In this document: positions 28,246 to 38,000 of the stretch, piece after piece | Numbering within the stretch: position 1 is the first letter of the stretch | Layout: each line of letters begins with the position of its first letter | Assembly: GCF_003602275.1 (NCBI RefSeq) | Contig: NZ_QZVT01000005.1 | Span: 258,895 to 322,894 of the forward strand | Source: Arthrobacter cheniae | GTDB taxonomy: Bacteria > Actinomycetota > Actinomycetes > Actinomycetales > Micrococcaceae | DNA: 64,000 nucleotides | Direction of reading: 5' to 3' | Made by a program: the position numbers and the translations under genes | The notes under the pieces: generated by a model | Told to the model about the DNA's origin: nothing | The model's input: only the letters and a program-made list of their open reading frames with translations | The model's database searches: none

Positions 28246-29670
28246 ATGTTTAAGAATGCGGACGAGGTCCTCAAGTTCATCGCCGATGAAGACATCAGGT
28301 TTGTCGATGTCCGGTTCACCGATCTGCCGGGGGTGCAGCAGCACTTCAATGTTCCTGCCAAGTCGGTCGACGCGGACTTCTTCATTCACGGCCAGCTTTT
28401 CGACGGATCGTCCATCCGCGGGTTCCAGGGCATCGCCGAATCGGACATGCAGCTCATTCCGGACGTGACGACGGCTTTCGTAGATCCGTTCCGCACGGAG
28501 AAGACCCTTGCGCTCAACTTCTCGATCGTGAATCCACGCACCGGTGACCCGTACCACCGCGACCCTCGCAGTGTCGCCGAGCGCGCCGAGGCGTACCTGT
28601 CCTCCACGGGCATTGCGGACACGGCATTCTTCGCACCCGAGGCCGAGTTCTTCATCTTCGACAACGTTCAGTACGAGTCGTCTCCGCAGGGCAGCTTCTA
28701 CAAGGTCGATTCCATCGAGGCGCCCTGGAACTCGGGTCGCGAAGAAGTGGGCGGCAACCTCGGCAACAAGACTCCGTTCAAGGGCGGATACTTCCCCGTG
28801 TCCCCCGTCGACAAGCAGGCAGACCTGCGCGACGCCATCTGCGTCGAGTTGGACAAGGCCGGCCTCGAGGTGGAGCGCTCTCACCATGAGGTGGGCGGCG
28901 CCGGCCAGGCCGAGATCAACTACAAGTTCACGACCATGACGCACGCTGCCGATGACCTGCAGAAGTTCAAGTACATCGTCAAGAACGTGTCCAACGCCTG
29001 GGGCAAGTCGGCTACGTTCATGCCGAAGCCCATCTTCGGCGACAACGGCTCGGGAATGCACTGCCACCAGTCGCTGTGGGCCGATGGACAGCCCCTCTTC
29101 TACGACGAGCGCGGCTACGCCGGGCTGTCCGACATGGCCCGCTGGTACATCGGCGGACTGCTGAAGCACGCCTCGGCCGTCCTCGCTTTCACCAACCCGA
29201 CGGTCAACTCCTACCGCCGCCTGGTCAAGGGCTTCGAGGCACCGGTCAACATGGTCTACTCGCAGGGCAACCGCTCTGCCGGTATCCGTATCCCCATCAC
29301 GGGCTCGAACCCGAAGGCCAAGCGCATCGAGTTCCGCGCGCCGGACCCCTCGTCGAACCCCTACCTGGCCTTCGCCGCACAACTGATGGCAGGCCTCGAC
29401 GGTATCAAGAATCGGATCGAGCCCGCGGAGCCCATCGACAAGGACCTCTATGAGTTGCCTCCCGAGGAATCCAAGGACATCCAGAAGGCTCCCGGTTCCC
29501 TCGAGGAAGCATTGCTGGCCCTCGAAGCGGACAACGAGTTCCTGCAGGCCGGCGACGTCTTCACGCAGGACCTGATCGACACCTGGATCGACTACAAGCG
29601 CGAGATGGAGATCAAGCCCCTCTCGCTCCGCCCGAACCCCTACGAGTTCGAGCTGTACTACGGCGTCTAA
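28246..29670 (+). CDS. glnA: glutamine synthetase type I
   Basis: Makes glutamine from glutamate, ammonia and ATP as a dodecamer. The 474-residue product is full length and has FDGSSIRGF, the ATP/metal site [22 protein letters not shown], the nucleotide-site signature [17 protein letters not shown] and NRSAGIRIP. The adenylylation loop [10 protein letters not shown] carries the tyrosine that GlnE modifies, and glnE lies 5.3 kb downstream. It ends EFELYYGV. Transcription is probably controlled by GlnR. The last codons overlap the presumed left attachment core of a 3.75-kb insertion, so the 3' end may come from the incoming element while still encoding a normal C terminus. Confidence 0.98.
29650..29664 (+). 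repeat. putative attL core at the glnA 3' end
   Basis: GAGCTGTACTACGGC, within the last codons of glnA, is repeated exactly at 33400-33414. Similarity continues over the stop codon (TCTA) and, more weakly, about 25 bp beyond (ending GAAGCGG). Confidence 0.65.
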
Positions 29671-29696
29671 CTACATGACGCGGCTGAAGCGGGGTT

Positions 29697-29717
29697 AGTC
29701 CGCAGAGAGTCCGCAAG
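29697..29717 (+). repeat. left arm-type direct repeat
   Basis: AGTCCGCA at 29697-29704 and 29708-29715. The whole 21 bp matches 33283-33303 with one mismatch. Resembles integrase arm-type sites; it lies 27 bp after the glnA stop. Confidence 0.65.
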
Positions 29718-29723
29718 ACCTAC

Positions 29724-29753
29724 GGGGCCGGGAGGGAGACACCTCCCGGCCCC
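29724..29753 (+). terminator. terminator after glnA
   Basis: GGGGCCGGGAGG and CCTCCCGGCCCC pair perfectly with a 6-base loop. Confidence 0.85.
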
Positions 29754-30534
29754 GCCTTGCGGCTGGTGAGAAACGTCCACTTGGACGGTCAGACTCAATT
29801 TGGACGCGGGCGGCGTTTTTGATTGGCCTGCAAAGGGGACGCTGTTGCGGCCTACTACCCTCTACGGTGGAAGCCAACCTGTCGGTTGTCGGTGACGACC
29901 CGAAGGTTCGGCGAAGTTGCGCGCTCCAGCCTCAGCCGAGAGGAAATCGCGAGCAACATAAAGCAGCCTTCACGAGCGGACTTCAGCTATTCACGCGATG
30001 TGATCCAGCCGATCAATGGTGCGAAGAACGCATAGGCTCAGCCTAGTGCTCGCCTGCAGTAGGTCTGGCTGTGCTACCTAGGGGTTGAACGGGCCGGATG
30101 TATGAGGCCATCTGGGTAGGCCGCCTGGCTGGTCTCATGGCGTGGTTACAGGTGAAGGACCATCCGGCAGCGCGTGTTCGATGAAGTTACTCGATTGTCC
30201 AGTTGGACCGCGGCCATGTCTTCTTCGCTCTGATATCTCCTCGACGATCGAGCACCTGTTCGCAGCCGCTGAATCAGATAAGGGCGGCATCAGCGTGATG
30301 CACCTGGGCTGCCGGATCGGAACAGGAACCTAGGCGGCTCCAGTTCCAACCAAAGGTGCTCCGCGCGTCCAGAACCTACTACGAGTCATCGCACCTCGAC
30401 CAATCTCCCGGGCGGTGTACTCGCTCACCGGGTCGAGGACCTGAATGAATGCACCTGTAATGCGCGCCGGCCTCCCAAGAATCCCTGACGGCGCCACGAT
30501 GGCTAGAGCGACCGTCTATGTATAGGCAGCCTGA
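29754..30534. other. non-coding or decayed stretch inside the insertion
   Basis: About 780 bp with no gene I can support. Short open frames exist (for example 29823-30035 plus strand) but have no ribosome site or known motif. On the minus strand, a frame of about 52 codons near 30330-30490 reads GRPARITGAFIQVLD and SEYTAREIGRG; this may be a relic of a gene or chance. A 14-bp palindrome containing GTCCACTTGGAC lies near 29775. Confidence 0.4.
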
Positions 30535-32520
30535 TCACCTGCCCAATGTCGCCCGTAGCTTCGCGGTGTACAGGGGGGCGACGGCGTCGTGCCCGGCTTG
30601 CGACAGGTGGACGTTATCCAAGTACTGGGCGTTGGCTGTGCTGGCGAGGCCGGCAACAGAGATGAACGTGACGCCCTGCTTCGCCGCATTGGCTGCCAGA
30701 ACACCGTCTATGTGACGGCGCTGGACGTGGGAGGCATCGTTGCGCGACATGACGCCGTTGATGACGATCTTGCTTTGCGGATACATGAGCTTCAGCTTGG
30801 CCCACAGGGCTGAGCTGTCCGCTATGACCTGTGCGTCGGACCTGCCGGCCGATGCATCGTTTCCGCCCATGGACACCAAGACCAGGCCCGGAGTTCCGCC
30901 CGGGAAACGCACGAGTCCCTGCTGGACTGCCGTCCAGCCTGTCCCACCGGCCGAGGATGTCGGGGTCGAGTAGCCGATGCCTCCGAAGGAGAGGTGTGCT
31001 GCCTGGTCGGTGAAACCCATCGCACGGGCACCCTGCTCGCTCCAGGAGTCACCGTCGAGTTGTGAATCACCGTAGAGCACCACCGATGTGGCAGTGGCTT
31101 TGACATCAGTGAAGGGGTAGACGGGCGGCGCGCCACGAATCTCGGGCTTAGGAAAGCCGGCGGCGGCCCACTGGTTGTAGTTCACTGCGCGATTCAGGAA
31201 GGGACCCGAGTAGTAGATGGTCGGGTTCCCGTAGAGCTGGTAGAACACGTCACCGTTGACCCTGGCTTGCGATCGGGGCGTCGGTTGGCCTTCACCTCGC
31301 CATTCGTTGTAGCTCAGGCCGGACCCTTGTCCGGCTGACAAGCTGGTCATGCGTCCGATGTCGCTTGACCAGCTCAGCTTGACGAAGCCCTGGTCGTAGA
31401 TCGGCTGGAAGGGCTGGAAGCCGGAGCGCTGCCACTCGGCGTAGTTCAGGGCGTGCTTCGTTGCATCAGGGGCTTGCACGAAGATCTCGGACGAAGTTTC
31501 CCACCTGTAGAAGGAGCTGCCGGGGATCCATCCGATGTTCCGCTTGCCCGGAGATCCTGCTGCCCGGAACTGGTTGTAGTTCAGCATGTCCCACTGCCAG
31601 GCATTTTCGCCCCCCGGCCAAAATGTCACTGCATACACCGAGGAGGACCAGGCATAGCCGACATAGTCAGTAGGAGTGCGCGCAGGGCGCTGGAATCCGT
31701 AGACGTCGCGCCACTTCGCGAAATTGAGCGGCACCGGACCCGAGCTGCCGTCCTTGTAAGTCACGAATTCGTAAATTGTTCCGTCATAACTGTTCTTGAA
31801 CAGCGGCCACAGAGTTTCCTGCGGCGCTTCAGAAGCGGTGACGGCCAACGGGGGGACTGCCATCACGTAGCTTTCGCATGCACCGGAGAGGAAGTAGCGA
31901 AGTTGCGCCTGCTCCCTCGAGTCGACGGTGAGACCCCATCGGTACTTCACGCGAACCCACTCCGACACATACTGGCAGCGCGTATCGGCCAGTGATGGCA
32001 ACCACTCATACGGGTCTGAAGCCCCCCTCGATGCATTCAAGCTGCCCATCATGCCGGTCAAGGATGCATCAAGGTCGAGATCGTTGGCGAACCGCTGCCG
32101 TGTACTCGAGTCCCAGGAAGACGCTCCTGAGAACCAGGCTTCCTGCAGCGGCACGAAGTGAACGACGTCGATTTCGACGGGCGTGATCGATGTTCGGCCG
32201 TCCCACGGCGAATACCACTCGCCTGAAGCAATGGTGCATGCGTCTGCCATGACTACCGGTGTCACGGATTCTTCGATGAGTACTTCCTGCCGGGTATCGA
32301 GGCAGTCGCGGTCGTCGTCCAACCAGTGCTCGAAGTAATCCTGGCTATAGGCCGGTCCTCCTTCGGCCCTCAGAACGAGTTCCGAGAGGAGCGCAAGGCC
32401 GTTGAGGGCTTGGCCTTCTACGGCGTCGGCGTGCGAGGGTGCCACTACTCCGGTAAAAGCTGATCCGGTGATCGCAAGGCACGCGAACGCAGACATAGTC
32501 CGCCCTAAGCGATTGTTCAA
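30535..32520 (-). CDS. secreted fusion protein: HNH/DUF1524-like domain, YxxW repeats and SGNH hydrolase
   Basis: A 661-residue exported protein. A signal peptide (NNRLGRT, hydrophobic core, cleavage after SHA) precedes an HNH/DUF1524-like domain (about 35-205: DCLDTRQEVL, VVHFVPLQEAW, SLNASRG, EWLP). About five ~45-residue repeats ending LNYxxWxxxGxPxP follow (245-462). A complete SGNH hydrolase (about 470-661) ends the protein: GDSQ (catalytic Ser), a block II Gly in GGIGYS, GGND and DNVH. The usual DH of the nuclease motif is VH here, so nuclease activity is doubtful. Repeats of this sort may bind the cell wall. I chose TTG 32520 because GGGGGA lies before it; ATG 32574 and ATG 32496 are alternatives. 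The hydrolase probably acts on acylated surface polymers (inference). Confidence 0.85.
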   Translation of the reverse strand: MNNRLGRTMSAFACLAITGSAFTGVVAPSHADAVEGQALNGLALLSELVLRAEGGPAYSQDYFEHWLDDDRDCLDTRQEVLIEESVTPVVMADACTIASGEWYSPWDGRTSITPVEIDVVHFVPLQEAWFSGASSWDSSTRQRFANDLDLDASLTGMMGSLNASRGASDPYEWLPSLADTRCQYVSEWVRVKYRWGLTVDSREQAQLRYFLSGACESYVMAVPPLAVTASEAPQETLWPLFKNSYDGTIYEFVTYKDGSSGPVPLNFAKWRDVYGFQRPARTPTDYVGYAWSSSVYAVTFWPGGENAWQWDMLNYNQFRAAGSPGKRNIGWIPGSSFYRWETSSEIFVQAPDATKHALNYAEWQRSGFQPFQPIYDQGFVKLSWSSDIGRMTSLSAGQGSGLSYNEWRGEGQPTPRSQARVNGDVFYQLYGNPTIYYSGPFLNRAVNYNQWAAAGFPKPEIRGAPPVYPFTDVKATATSVVLYGDSQLDGDSWSEQGARAMGFTDQAAHLSFGGIGYSTPTSSAGGTGWTAVQQGLVRFPGGTPGLVLVSMGGNDASAGRSDAQVIADSSALWAKLKLMYPQSKIVINGVMSRNDASHVQRRHIDGVLAANAAKQGVTFISVAGLASTANAQYLDNVHLSQAGHDAVAPLYTAKLRATLGR

Positions 32521-32968
32521 AGGTGTCCCCCAAAAGAAGCCGTAGCCACAGCTCAAAGATGATGGCCTGAGCATACCGCCGCCGACAACCCTCGACCGTC
32601 ACCTGCCTCATTAAGCGGAAGTTCCGCGAGTACGCCTGGCGTTAGGCATAACAGGGTTCCCTCGCACCATGAATATCCACGAAACGGTCATAGTGCTCCA
32701 TCCACCGCTTATGTTTACACCCGAACCTATAAGGGTGTGCGGTCTCAAGTGCTACATAACGACTCAAGGCCACTGCAACATTCAGCTGTACTGGCTCCCA
32801 AACTGCTCAATCGGATTGTGACCATTCACAGGCGATTCCGTCGCCTTCGCGGTCGACCCTGTAGCGATAACCTGGGCTGCCCGCGGTCCGTGAGCTTGCA
32901 GTTCGCCAACGGTTCTAGTCGACTGACGGAAGCGCGCGAGGTCAGCACGGCGGACACTGCGGCTCTAG
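32521..32968. other. AT-richer non-coding region in the insertion
   Basis: Upstream of the fusion-protein gene and of a small plus-strand ORF. Base composition drops clearly compared with core genes. It should contain divergent promoters, but I cannot assign boxes reliably. No convincing ORF. Confidence 0.45.
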
Positions 32969-33199
32969 ATGGGCTCTTGTCATGTGAAGGCTAGAAGGAA
33001 CTGTGTCACCAGCAACACCCAGGGTTCCGATGTGGTTCAGAACGAGAGGTATGAAAACTACTTTCTGGCCCTCGTTTGGAATGCCAATGAGGGCGCCCAA
33101 CTCCATGCCGAGATAGACGGCACTCTGAGCCGTGAGGACAGTCTGAAGCTTGGAACGGACATTGCTCGGATAGCCGAGCAGATCAACGACCTCAATTAG
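32969..33199 (+). CDS. small hypothetical protein
   Basis: A possible 76-residue protein. Its second half looks like real, soluble protein (ENYFLALVWNANEG, LHAEIDGTLSREDSLKLG, DIARIAEQINDLN), while the first 20 residues do not. GTG 33032 (giving about 55 residues) is an alternative start; neither has a strong ribosome site. It lies just inside the right end of the insertion. I do not recognise the family. Confidence 0.45.
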   Translation: MGSCHVKARRNCVTSNTQGSDVVQNERYENYFLALVWNANEGAQLHAEIDGTLSREDSLKLGTDIARIAEQINDLN

Positions 33200-33282
33200 A
33201 CATCGCGTTCAGCGGACTGTGACCGGTAACTGAGCCGGACGGCCGTCGTTGGTCGTTCGTCGGATAGAACGTAGCGCTGTTC

Positions 33283-33303
33283 AGTCCGCAGAAAGTCCGC
33301 AAG
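33283..33303 (+). repeat. right arm-type direct repeat
   Basis: AGTCCGCA at 33283-33290 and 33294-33301, an 11-bp period identical to the left copy, with one mismatch over 21 bp. It lies 97 bp before the right core. Confidence 0.65.
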
Positions 33304-33387
33304 CGGGCTATTCCAACCAACGTCATACAACGGCTACTTCTGCGTACTGGCGCGGAATCCAATGATCCTCGACCTCTCACAAACACC

Positions 33388-33420
33388 ATGCGCGAGGTTG
33401 AGCTGTACTACGGCTTCTAG
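33388..33420 (+). pseudogene. glnA 3'-end fragment, putative attR
   Basis: Reads MREVELYYGF then stop, in the same frame as the end of glnA (EFELYYGV). The 15-bp core 33400-33414 is identical to 29650-29664. Probably the original chromosomal glnA terminus displaced by the insertion. Confidence 0.6.
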
Positions 33421-33486
33421 CTGCCGCACGGGCCGGAAGCGGTCTGTTCGACAGACTCTCCACAGGAAGTGCTGTGGCTGAACCGA

Positions 33487-33519
33487 AGGCCCCTCCCGGC
33501 ATTGCGACGAGGGGGGCCT
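33487..33519. terminator. hairpin between the glnA fragment and the acyltransferase
   Basis: AGGCCCCTC pairs with GAGGGG-gg-CCT with an imperfect stem. It may be the original glnA terminator, and it also lies past the leftward acyltransferase stop. Confidence 0.55.
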
Positions 33520-33575
33520 CTTGGTTGTGTCGGCACCACTCCTGTCCGCGGAGGGCGGCAAGGGAGCCCTAGCGA

Positions 33576-34583
33576 TCACGTGGCGCGCGGCGTGCCCAGA
33601 AAGATCTGAGAGAGCGGCGTCCGGTTGAGGATCATGGCTACGGACCATGGCAGGACCACCGCTGCGATCAGCACCCAGAAGGGCCGCTCCGTATCGGGGA
33701 TCCCAAGCAACCAGAGAACGTACGTATGGGTCAGCACGACCATCAGGCAACCCGCGGCGAGTCTCGTGGAAACCGTGTGGACCCATCCGGGCAGCCGGGA
33801 GAACACACCCTCGAGGATCAAGAGGAGGCCGAAGCTGATCAGCACCGCAGCGACGATACTGAGGACCGGCGTGCCGAGCTCGCCGTATTTCATGTCCAGT
33901 GGTGCTGACACTCCGGCGAGGACAGGAGCGGCGCCCGCAGCGAGGCACCCTGCACCGAACCGGACAGGCTTCTTCACCCGGCTACGGAAGTGCCGCAGCC
34001 CCTGGCCTGCAAGCATGAAGATGAGCGCGGAGCCCGCGACTCCGATCGACAGCGGCAGCGGTGCGAGGACGTCCCCGAAGAGATGGGTAGTGACGGTGAT
34101 CGCAGCGATGATCGCGACCCGAAGGACAAGGGAAAAACGCTCGAGTGCCCGGAACATGATCGCGGAGAAGAAGAGCGCAGGCATGAACCAGTAAGCGCCG
34201 AACGGCCCCGCGTTGAGGGAGCCGCCGATGAGGGGCAGGGTCACGGCCTCGGGCGTGAACGTGCCACGGTGATTGAGGATGGTGACGTGGACCAGGAGGG
34301 TCGCTACCAACCATGCGAAGTAGGGCGTCATGATGGTCCGGAACCGCTTTTTCGCTTCGCCCGCGACGGCCCCTCGGGCATCCGGTCTCCGGATCTTCCA
34401 GAGGTACCCGGACAGCAGGAAGAACGCAGGGACGTGCCACGTGTAGAGGCCGGCGTCGATGAACGGGCCCGCCCAGACGTGCCCGGTGACGATCCCGACG
34501 ACCGCGACGATGCGGAGGGCGTCGATGGCTCCGGAGCGGGTCGTGGTGTCGGCGTCCGGTGTCGGTGCGGGCAATGACGCCAA
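33576..34583 (-). CDS. acyltransferase-3 family membrane protein
   Basis: A 335-residue membrane protein with about ten hydrophobic segments, of the acyltransferase-3 (OafA/NodX-like) family that O-acetylates surface sugars. The early RIVAVVGIVTGHVW has the family His in segment 1, and WHVPAFFLLSGYLW in segment 2 matches the usual pattern. The start is TTG 34583 with GGAGGA five bases upstream; an ATG at the same place is in another frame. It stands alone between the glnA fragment and glnE, so it was probably also acquired. The adjacent SGNH hydrolase points to a possible joint role in acylating and deacylating a cell-surface polymer. Confidence 0.88.
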   Translation of the reverse strand: MASLPAPTPDADTTTRSGAIDALRIVAVVGIVTGHVWAGPFIDAGLYTWHVPAFFLLSGYLWKIRRPDARGAVAGEAKKRFRTIMTPYFAWLVATLLVHVTILNHRGTFTPEAVTLPLIGGSLNAGPFGAYWFMPALFFSAIMFRALERFSLVLRVAIIAAITVTTHLFGDVLAPLPLSIGVAGSALIFMLAGQGLRHFRSRVKKPVRFGAGCLAAGAAPVLAGVSAPLDMKYGELGTPVLSIVAAVLISFGLLLILEGVFSRLPGWVHTVSTRLAAGCLMVVLTHTYVLWLLGIPDTERPFWVLIAAVVLPWSVAMILNRTPLSQIFLGTPRAT

Positions 34584-35008
34584 TCATTCCTCCGAGGTCG
34601 AATTGGTCAGTATCAAGGGTAGTCGAGGGCTCCTCGACGACTCGAATCACAATGTCGGACTGACCCATGAGCGCATACCTGCTAGCTGGCAGGACTCGTC
34701 AGGTGCTCTCCCTGGCCTGGTCCGCGGGCTCCGGACGAGGCCGCCCTCGTCCTCTCCCCCACACGACGCCGAGGCAAAGCCAGTGTGTAACTAGACCGTC
34801 AGCGAAACGTTCTTGCCGAGGGCAACCCTTCAGCAAGGTTTTTCCTGTCTCGCCAGTCCACGGTCGCGCCTTACCTCCGCTGTGCAAGCACCTTCATGCG
34901 ATCACTCACCCCCGTGCTAGCCGATCGGTTCGCGGCCAGCAACGAATAGGAGGATCCGCCGCGCCAGACGCGGAGGCTGCCTCCCAGGAGCCGTTCACCG
35001 GTGCGGCC
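34584..35008. other. 425-bp gap between acyltransferase and glnE
   Basis: Non-coding as far as I can see. A small inverted repeat GTCGAGG-gct-CCTCGAC lies near 34620-34640. No tRNA or other RNA gene recognised. The acyltransferase promoter should be at its left end. Confidence 0.45.
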
Positions 35009-38000
35009 TCAGTAGCCGTAGAAGTGCCGTTCGAAGATGGCCCGGCTCCTGCGCGTCATGCGGAGGTAGTCCTCCTCGAGGTCTGCGCCGCTGCCCGGTC
35101 CGTACCCGCACCACCGTGCCACCGCCTCGAGGTCACGGCGGGGTGAAGGCAGGAGGTCGGAGTTGCGACCACTCCAGATCACGTTTGCCGCTCGGATACG
35201 CGTGGCGAGGCTCCAACCGGCCCGCAGCGTGGCGACGTCCTCGACAGGAAGCAGCCCCTCGTCCGCGATGACGTCCAGCCCCGAGAGCGTGGACTGCACC
35301 CGCAGGGCCGGAATCGCATGGGCGTGCTGCAGCTGGAGAAGCTGTACGAGCCATTCGACATCACTCAGTGCCCCCCGTCCGAGCTTGAGGTGCCGTGACG
35401 GGTCAGCGCCGCGGGGAAGCCGCTCCGACTCGACCCGGGCCTTGACCCGCCGGATCTCCCGGACGTCGGAGTCGCCGAGCTCCTGCGGGTAACGGACGGG
35501 ATCGATCAGTGCGAGGAACTCGGCGGCGAGCCCGTCGTCGCCGGCAAGCGGCCTCGCCCGGAGGAGCGCCTGCGCTTCCCAGACGAGCGACCAGCGGCGG
35601 TAGTACTCCCGGTAGGAGTCGATGGAACGAACCATAGCGCCCTGCTTGCCCTCGGGCCGCAACGCCGCATCGATCTCCAGGACCCGTTCTGCACGGACCG
35701 GAGGCTTGCACGGCTGGGTCAGGAGGGCGGCAAGGCGGGCCACGATCGCCTCGGCCTGCTTCTGCGCAGCAGCCTCGTCCGCACCCTCGAACGGGCGGTG
35801 CACGTAAATCACGTCAGCGTCTGAGCCGTACGTGATCTCACGTCCGCCCTGCCGGCCCATGGCCATGACGACGATGTCGGTCAACCGCTCCTCCCCCCGC
35901 CCGAGGATCTCCTTCTCCGCGACGTGGAGTGCTCCAAGGATCGCGGCGCGGTCGGCATCCGCAAGGGCCTCTCCCACCTCCGCCTGCGTCAGGAGGTTCG
36001 AGCTGTCGGCGATGGCGATCCGCAGCAACTCGCGGCGTCGGATCAGGCGGATCAGGCGGATGGCCTCGCCCGGCTCCGGATGCCGGGACATCTTGGATTG
36101 GATCTCCTGCCATTGCGCCTCGAAGGTATCGGGCACGAGCGCGGCATCGGATCCGAGCCACTGCGTCGATTCCGGGGAGACCTCCAGCAGATCGGTGATG
36201 AACCGGCTACTCGAGAGCACGGCGCAGAGGCGTTCCGCCGCCGCGTTCGAGTCGCGGAGCATCCCGAGATACCAGTGACTCTCGCCGAGTGATTCGCTCA
36301 GGCGGCGGAAGCCGAGGAGGCCGGCATCGGGATCGACGCCGTCGGCGAACCATGCAAGCAGGATGGGCAGTAGCTGCTTCTGCAGCATCGCGCGTCGGCG
36401 CAGTCCGCCGGTCAGGGCCTCGATGTGGCGCATGGCCCCGCGTGGATCCTGATAGCCGAGGGCCGCCAGGCGGGCTTGCGCCGCTTCGGCCGTCAGCTGG
36501 ACGTCCTCAGGTTGGAGTGTTGCCGCGTTGTTGAGCAGCGGTCGATAGAAGATCGCCTCGTGAAGCCGCTTCACGAGGCGTCGCGTGCGCTGCCACTTCT
36601 CGTTGAGGCTCTGCGCACTGGGCCTGATCGTGACCATGCGCCCCTCGGATGAACGTGCGAGGGACCGCAGGGACGTCTCGTCCTCGGGCATGAGATGCGT
36701 ACGACGCATCTGGGTCAGCTGGATCCTGTGCTCCAGGACGCGCAGGTAGCGGTAGGAGTCGTCGAGGTCCAGTGCGTCCGACCGGCCGATGTAGCCCGCC
36801 GAACTGAGGGCGGCTATCGCGGACACGGTGTCCCTGACGCGCAGCGACTCGTCCAGCCGCCCGTGCACCAGCTGCAGCAACTGGACCGTGAATTCGACGT
36901 CGCGCAGGCCCCCGGGTCCGAGCTTGAGCTGGCGCGCCTCCTCCTCGCGCGGGATGTTGTCCGTGACGCGGCGGCGCATGGCGCGGACGGCTTCGACGAA
37001 GCCCTCACGCTGCGACGACGCCCACACGAAGGGGGCGATGGCCTCCTCGTACCGGCGGCCGAGCCCCGGGTCACCCGCGACGGCGCGCGCTTTGAGGAGA
37101 GCCTGGAACTCCCACGTCTTCGCCCACCGCTGATAGTAGGACACGTGGGATTCCAGGGTCCGCACGAGTTGCCCGTCCTTGCCCTCTGGCCGGAGGTTCG
37201 CATCCACTTCCCAAAGCGCCGGTTCCGGGCCGGGTGAGTAGACACCGCGGGACATTCCGGAGGCCAGGCCGGTGCCGATCCTGGTGAGCGTCGTGTCATC
37301 GAGGTCGTCGGCCTCCACGACGTAGACGACGTCGACGTCGGAGATGTAGTTCAATTCGCGGGCCCCGCACTTACCCATCGCGATCACTGCCAGCCGGACC
37401 CGGGCGACGACGTCGGGCCCGTAGACCTCGCCGAGCTCCGCACGTGCGACGGCGAGCGATGCCTCCAGCGCAGCCGCGGCGAGATCGGCAAGCTCACGCG
37501 CGACGACGGGTAGGTAGTCGACCGGCGCGCAGTGGGAGAGGTCCCGGACCGCGAGATCGGTCAGGTGCCGTCGGTAGGTCACCCGCAGTGCGCGGTAGGC
37601 GTCCACTCCTACGGCACCGGCCACCGGGTTGTCGTCCGCCGGGTCGGCGACGACGGATCTGAGCAGGAGGGACCTGAGGTCTCCGGGTTCGACGACTCGC
37701 GGCATGGCAGGCCCCGGCGCGACGACGTCGAGGTGCTCCGGGTGGCGCATGAGGAACTCTCCGAGAGCTTCGGAGGCACCGAGCAGCCGGAACAAAGATG
37801 CACGCCTGCCTTCGTCCGAGAAGGCGGCATCGACTGCCCTGCGATGGACGGCCAGCAGGCGCACGAAGGACTGCAGCGCGAGGTCCGGGTTTGCGGCGAC
37901 CGCGAGCCCGGCGAACAGGGCGTCGTCGTTCAGTCCCTGCAGCTCCGGTGCGTCCAGGAAGCGCCGACTCTTCTCGAGGTCCGTGAAGCCGTAACTGATC

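Follow-up and report, generated by a model that had tools for sequence, protein, structure and literature searches.

What does an exported protein that joins an HNH-like domain, a repeat module and an SGNH hydrolase do, and how did its gene come to lie between glnA and glnE? The question is raised by P0001, the product of a minus-strand gene at 30535..32520 of a 64,000-nucleotide stretch of Arthrobacter cheniae DNA (the window; contig C27, genome of 4.0 Mb). The account favoured here, whose chances of being right we put at about even, is that P0001 is a wall-tethered carbohydrate (glycan) O-acyl esterase, with an activity predicted from residues and fold, and the principal cargo of a small integrative island.

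Gene and domain layout

The minus-strand open reading frame spans 30535-32574 and comprises 679 codons when read from the ATG at 32574. A TTG at 32520 has the stretch GGGGGA just upstream, and the first start codon of the corresponding frame in the related genome G032 is a TTG at the matching place; for these two reasons the likelier predicted product is a protein of 661 residues starting at the TTG, with the ATG as the alternative start. Residue numbers refer throughout to P0001 counted from the ATG.

The protein begins with a signal peptide (residues 19-50, 32425..32520, identified by eye), through which it is predicted to be exported, as an earlier reading made from the sequence alone (the sequence-only reading) had proposed. 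It is followed by a GmrSD_C/HNH-like module (residues ~55-235, 31870..32412), a five-repeat module that is likely to target the cell wall, as judged from its partner domains (residues 258-482, 31129..31803), and an SGNH hydrolase domain carrying Ser504, Gly532, Asn572, Asp653 and His656 (residues 483-679, 30538..31128), all on the minus strand. Pfam recognises GmrSD_C (PF07510, residues 137-225, 25.8 bits against a cut-off of 23) and Lipase_GDSL_2 (PF13472, residues 501-664, 45.7 bits against a cut-off of 32.9), with no family match for the middle region, which bears out the domain order given in the sequence-only reading.

Comparison with the G032 protein gave dN/dS values of 0.19 for the HNH module, 0.38 for the repeats and 0.10 for the SGNH domain, at dS values of 0.8-1.7 that are partly saturated. 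These ratios argue that the frame is not a chance one, and purifying selection seems to act on each of the three modules. A full-length AlphaFold2 model computed from a 24-row alignment reached a mean pLDDT of 59 and was poor outside the SGNH domain, and its HNH and repeat parts were left out of use. Neither P0001 nor the product of the acyltransferase gene in the window matched the PADLOC models at an E-value of 0.1.

Rarity of the architecture

The complete combination proved rare rather than common. Some part of P0001 has a match in 34 of the 38 genomes of the genus, and HNH domain, repeats and SGNH domain are found in one protein in two of them (G000 and G032). Among the seven of 395 family-sample genomes that encode the repeats, the same two are the only ones with the combination (loci L086 and L088 left out). 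Other repeat proteins of G032 combine the repeats with an HNH domain and Excalibur, with Excalibur alone (by eye), with a metalloprotease-like domain or with a GH25 domain, and HNH domains with repeats and no SGNH domain occur in G113, in G359 (two proteins) and, outside the family, in G1051. The genome_contigs scan returned three relatives, Arthrobacter agilis 4041, Arthrobacter sp. B0490 and SX1312, all through the SGNH domain, and none of the 478 plasmid records that match P0001 does so over 80% of the protein. In the literature, searched by title and the start of the abstract, no description was found of the P0001 architecture, of the repeat or of glnA as an integration site of this kind. 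The general kind to which P0001 belongs, that of repeat-anchored SGNH esterases, is already known.

A complete SGNH domain behind an exchanged module

The catalytic residues listed above, with the glycine position as Gly531/532, belong to blocks I, II, III and V and are invariant in all 16 aligned sequences. The SGNH domain of P0001 looks complete, as the sequence-only reading had it, and is predicted to be an active esterase. In the full-length AlphaFold2 model the block pLDDT is 74-95 from residue 491 onward, and the best solved Foldseek match is a sialate O-acetylesterase (E-value of 1.1e-7); other solved SGNH matches include carbohydrate esterases of families CE2 and CE3 and PAF acetylhydrolase. 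The domain is also the most strongly constrained of the three modules (omega 0.10). Weak matches of the region in PHROGs were to head decoration, tail and esterase/lipase families. In the proposed mechanism, this domain would strip acyl groups from a surface glycan.

The closest relatives of the domain follow a different module. LGFP repeats have an anchoring role. In six other Arthrobacter records, those of A. agilis (L034), B0490, SX1312, G004, G005 and G006 (the last five among loci L033, L007, L008, L009 and L035), an SGNH domain 80-87% identical to that of P0001 follows LGFP-type repeats, and a more distant protein, P0002, on a plasmid of Arthrobacter sp. ERGS1:01, has an SGNH domain 52% identical. 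The LGFP repeats (PF08310, preceding PF13472) are recognised by Pfam in L034 and P0002 and by eye in the other five. Like P0001, these proteins are predicted to be exported and place wall-type repeats before the same SGNH subfamily, whereas in P0001 the place of LGFP is taken by an HNH-like domain together with five repeats of an unrelated kind. Since a closely similar SGNH domain follows LGFP-type repeats in those six records, the module ahead of the conserved esterase appears to have been exchanged; if so, this is a clear case of LGFP repeats replaced by new ones before one conserved esterase. LGFP repeats occur in surface proteins, according to an excerpt of PMC2447325.

The five-repeat module

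The region between residues 258 and 482 contains five repeats of ~45 residues each, with a W...G.P-type end (by eye), and four of the five are also detectable as DNA repeats with a spacing of 132-135 nt (family D1). It is a real module. It has no Pfam or NCBIfam model, the P0001 segment giving no match at an E-value of 0.01; among 35 aligned repeat segments, single ones match models of BT_3657-like_N, DUF7857 and acylphosphatase. LGFP (PF08310) gave no match for P0001 at an E-value of 10, nor for the 35 segments at an E-value of 0.01. BTRD1 (PF17660) scored 18.9 and 20.3 bits, below its cut-off of 23, in two repeat proteins of G032, and gave no match for P0001. The module is rare and scattered, being found in seven of 395 genomes of the family sample, nine of 396 of the order sample and three of 394 of the class sample, samples that overlap in their members and include the window genome.

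A wall-acting domain above the Pfam cut-off accompanies the repeats in 15 of 35 repeat proteins (raw share), namely VanY in four, GH25, polysaccharide deacetylase, M23, SpoIID and SLT/Transglycosylas in two each, and NlpC/P60 in one. Because the repeats are fused to wall-acting domains in these relatives, the module probably targets the cell wall, a guilt-by-association argument from partner domains that agrees with the earlier description of five cell-wall-like repeats. Against it, 20 of the 35 have no such domain above the cut-off. GmrSD_C is present in six of the set above the cut-off and in one more below it (L068), and the remaining proteins carry CAP (two), metalloprotease-like (two, one below the cut-off), endonuclease/phosphatase (one) or 5'-nucleotidase (one) domains, Big/TIG (three, one below the cut-off) or no recognised family (four). 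The set leaves out L077, L111, L113, L118 and L096, as well as L086 and L088 (47-residue fragments); L103, L107 and L110 share proteins with scanned loci, and L100 is a second copy of L094. In the favoured mechanism, the module of P0001 would bind the cell wall of the producer or of a near relative.

The partner domains also bear on whether P0001 might be an enzyme that scavenges external polysaccharide of plants or microbes, its repeats serving as a carbohydrate-binding module (CBM) as in CE2 esterases. A binding module beside a GDSL-type SGNH domain, the order of CE2 and related carbohydrate esterases, is described in an excerpt of PMC9487903; CE2 and CE3 structures are among the fold matches, and one of the 35 repeat segments matches the model of an arabinosidase N-terminal domain. 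P0001 differs from those esterases in that its middle module matches no Pfam family and accompanies an HNH-like domain. Against a scavenging role, the partners of the repeats are mainly wall-acting or HNH domains with no plant-polysaccharide hydrolase among the Pfam matches, and the alternative partner of the P0001-type SGNH domain is the LGFP-type repeat. We regard the scavenging role as quite improbable, and retain wall tethering as the favoured function of the repeats.

Modelled on its own from 35 sequences, the module was predicted by AlphaFold2 with a mean pLDDT of 97.1 and a pTM of 0.85, each repeat comprising beta strands and one short helix. A Foldseek search of the PDB with this model found nothing at an E-value of 0.001, the top row being EccB1 (E-value of 0.0035), and a search of BFVD likewise found nothing at 0.001. 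On re-alignment with VIA the best match was again EccB1 (Z-score of 4.2, but with an r.m.s.d. of 17 Å over 104 residues), and a single EccB3 repeat superposed on 41 residues with an r.m.s.d. of 2.3 Å and a Z-score of 3.0. These Z-scores appear too low to claim kinship with EccB. An excerpt of PMC4769845 describes a weak resemblance between the EccB1 repeats and PlyCB, a phage protein that binds the wall. The P0001 repeats, as modelled, resemble those of these proteins in having small beta/alpha units with a Pro-rich strand after them; the five-repeat module gave no sequence match, though, and the likeness may be only a common arrangement. The missing structural match would not in itself prove a new fold.

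A five-bladed beta-propeller lectin was weighed as the identity of the repeats and not adopted: some propellers are present in weak rows, and neither Foldseek nor VIA gave a convincing match. A sequence search of the PDB returned two matches, with E-values of 0.17 and 0.78, which were taken as chance.

It may well be, with a probability we place near one half, that the repeats constitute an undescribed wall-binding family of Actinomycetes with a fold of its own, which combines with lysozymes, D,D-carboxypeptidases, endopeptidases, lytic transglycosylases, deacetylases, nucleases and esterases, replaces LGFP before the same esterase, and is spread with that esterase by mobile glnA islands, leading to remodelling of the host surface. 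If this holds, high-GC Gram-positive bacteria have a new class of wall-targeting module that can be put to the test. At one locus of G032 (L058:2172-7555), a secreted metalloprotease-like protein adjoins a GH25 lysozyme, the two carrying near-identical copies of the repeat module, an arrangement that looks like a recent duplication.

A probably degenerate HNH-like N terminus

The sequence-only reading assigned a nuclease fold to the N terminus. The relationship to HNH proteins stands, PF07510 being above its cut-off; a working nuclease is doubtful, given that valine replaces the aspartate at position 138 (codon 32161-32163). The HNH signature of P0001 is incomplete, reading D-V-V-H where relatives have D/Q-x-D-H, so that the Asp-His pair is replaced by Val138-His139; of 20 aligned sequences, the 19 others all have aspartate, and in a second alignment that includes the HNH and repeat proteins it is present in the other seven of eight, with valine only in P0001. 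The general-base His139 is present, and Asn180 aligns with the asparagine of relatives in the helix after the hairpin. A PDB sequence search with the HNH alignment gave nothing at an E-value of 1. The six phage records that match P0001 all do so over the HNH part only.

Several relatives place this change in context. Secreted GmrSD_C (DUF1524/HNH) proteins with Excalibur, such as L003 of the same genome, have an N-terminal domain homologous to that of P0001 (~31% identical); L003 has the D-H pair and an Excalibur end, whereas P0001 has V-H and ends in repeats and SGNH. Five further proteins (L057, L067, L068, L073 and L115) have the HNH domain and five repeats ordered as in P0001 and, in place of SGNH, a C terminus with Excalibur (L057) or another tail. 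All five have the aspartate and four of the five have Asp, His and Asn, L068 having aspartate for the asparagine. The other SGNH-fused protein, L004 of G032, has the D-H pair and serine at the helix asparagine. As the short HNH-only proteins L010 and L015 have threonine at that position and L068 aspartate, the helix asparagine alone is not decisive.

In Eco94GmrSD, the variants D507A, H508A and N522A are without activity, as stated in an excerpt of PMC4619093. Because Val138 replaces the aspartate that is essential there, the HNH domain of P0001 is probably degenerate, with loss of DNA cleavage, and would be kept as a structural or ligand-binding part after losing its metal-binding aspartate. 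Its dN/dS of 0.19 suggests a kept function and counts against a dead domain. With a single genome of the species sampled, Val138 might also reflect a sequencing error or a change private to that genome.

We consider it unlikely that the domain has stayed functional as an extracellular nuclease in spite of Val138, which would make P0001 a bifunctional wall-anchored nuclease and esterase that degrades external or incoming phage DNA. The retained His139 and Asn180 and the low dN/dS would fit such an enzyme, as would the abundance of HNH-module relatives in the genus and their presence on Streptomyces plasmids, and the intact Asp, His and Asn of the four proteins without SGNH. The aspartate shared by the other 19 aligned sequences, the effect of D507A and the serine of the other SGNH-fused copy speak against it. 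The degenerate domain remains the preferred interpretation.

An island at the glnA 3' end

The gene lies in a 3.75-kb stretch bounded by two copies of the end of glnA (host gene, 28246..29670, plus strand), whose 3' end is the target. The left attachment sequence is the glnA 3' end itself (29643..29692) and the right one is a second copy (33393..33442), both on the plus strand; the two are identical at 39 of 50 nt, while 203 control 50-mers reach at most 29 of 50. Just inside these copies lie two end motifs, also on the plus strand: AGTCCGCAGAGAGTCCGCAAG at 29697..29717, 26 nt past the glnA stop codon and with the same spacing as in G032, and AGTCCGCAGAAAGTCCGCAAG at 33283..33303, which precedes the right glnA-tail copy by 116 nt (by 127 nt in G026). 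Across the whole genome, their 18-nt core, AGTCCGCARANAGTCCGC, matches at exactly two positions, 29697 and 33283. Among the 38 genus genomes the motif occurs in six, at seven places, and a reversed-pattern control in none.

Matching sites are present in other genomes. In G032 the sole motif copy lies 26 nt past the glnA stop codon. Close to glnE, 32 nt of the glnA 3' end are repeated there (91%), and the frames between the tail copies include broken ones that look integrase-like by eye, the pieces not being recognised by Pfam. G026 has a second, exact copy of 22 nt of the glnA tail at a distance of 38.4 kb, which the motif precedes by 127 nt (L122-L124, G026:C150:80900-130000), and an open 375-residue frame near the left end terminates in an integrase-like R..H..R..Y region (by eye). 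This frame matches the G032 pieces with 81% identity over 72 residues, 86% over 58 and 45% over 74. The motif copies of G009 and G006 coincide with integrases recognised by Pfam or are close to them, and that in G003 (L126) has no recognised integrase among the listed open reading frames. On the strength of the tail repeats, the end motifs and the matching G032 and G026 sites, the 3.75-kb stretch of the window is a putative small member or remnant of a family of integrative elements at glnA. If so, these observations define the glnA 3' end as an integration site in the genus, and the end motifs allow such islands to be found.

No integrase open reading frame was seen between 29693 and 33393, none of the six Phage_integrase matches of the genome falls there, and a search of the window island for a remnant of the G032 integrase gave no credible match. 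The island would integrate at the glnA 3' end by means of a tyrosine integrase that it does not carry, by analogy with the G026 island. With the glnA-tail duplication and the P0001 gene as its main open reading frame, the island upholds the earlier suggestion that P0001 is the main cargo of a mobile element. Apart from one of 85 residues (32737-32994), no further non-overlapping frame reaches 80 residues. A possible open reading frame of 55 residues, with a GTG start, was noted by eye at 33032-33199 on the plus strand.

The content of the island bears on two further explanations. P0001 could be a functionless, decaying chimera left by module shuffling in a dead island, for which the lost HNH aspartate, the missing integrase and flanks with little coding content might be cited; in view of the 679-codon open frame, the purifying selection on three modules and the intact SGNH set, this is very improbable indeed. 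It could also be a weapon: once exported, it would attack competing relatives as a wall-binding effector. Fusion of the wall-targeting module to lytic enzymes in relatives, carriage as mobile cargo and a sporadic distribution are compatible with such a role. However, the island holds no sizeable candidate for an immunity gene, the 85-residue frame being the only other one of at least 80 residues, and SGNH esterases are not known to be wall-lytic by themselves, which makes a weapon distinctly unlikely.

Of the roles that the sequence-only reading had left side by side, we favour modification of the host surface and rank action on competitors, on phages or on external substrates below it. For island and host alike, the benefit would most likely lie in a changed surface, for example one on which phage receptors are altered or which resists lytic enzymes.

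The glnA-glnE gap as a hotspot

In many relatives glnE comes immediately after glnA; in the window the two are separated by a gap of 5.3 kb (29670-35009). In the 19 other genomes measured (loci L036-L055, with L055 left out at a contig end), the gap is ~75-135 bp in eight and 0.9 to ~39 kb in 11. The glnA-glnE intergenic region is a hotspot of gene gain in the genus. A glnA-tail copy is absent from nine of the 11 other filled gaps, so not every insertion between glnA and glnE is of the island kind.

The inserted genes recur in type. HNH-only genes with secreted-type N termini lie in the gaps of G006 and G025 (two of 20 loci), and OafA-like AT3 acyltransferases with a C-terminal SGNH domain in four gaps (L040, the one scanned with Pfam, L044, L039 and L045). 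The window also encodes an Acyl_transf_3 (AT3) acyltransferase (33576..34583, minus strand; PF01757, 84.5 bits against a cut-off of 31), which differs from the AT3-SGNH kind and lies between the right attachment copy and glnE, outside the 3.75-kb island. As empty sites have only ~80 bp there, it is probably a separate insertion. Surface acylation and its editing may be a common theme of the hotspot, and the recurrence of secreted HNH, acyltransferase and esterase genes there points to surface modification as a theme of the cargo.
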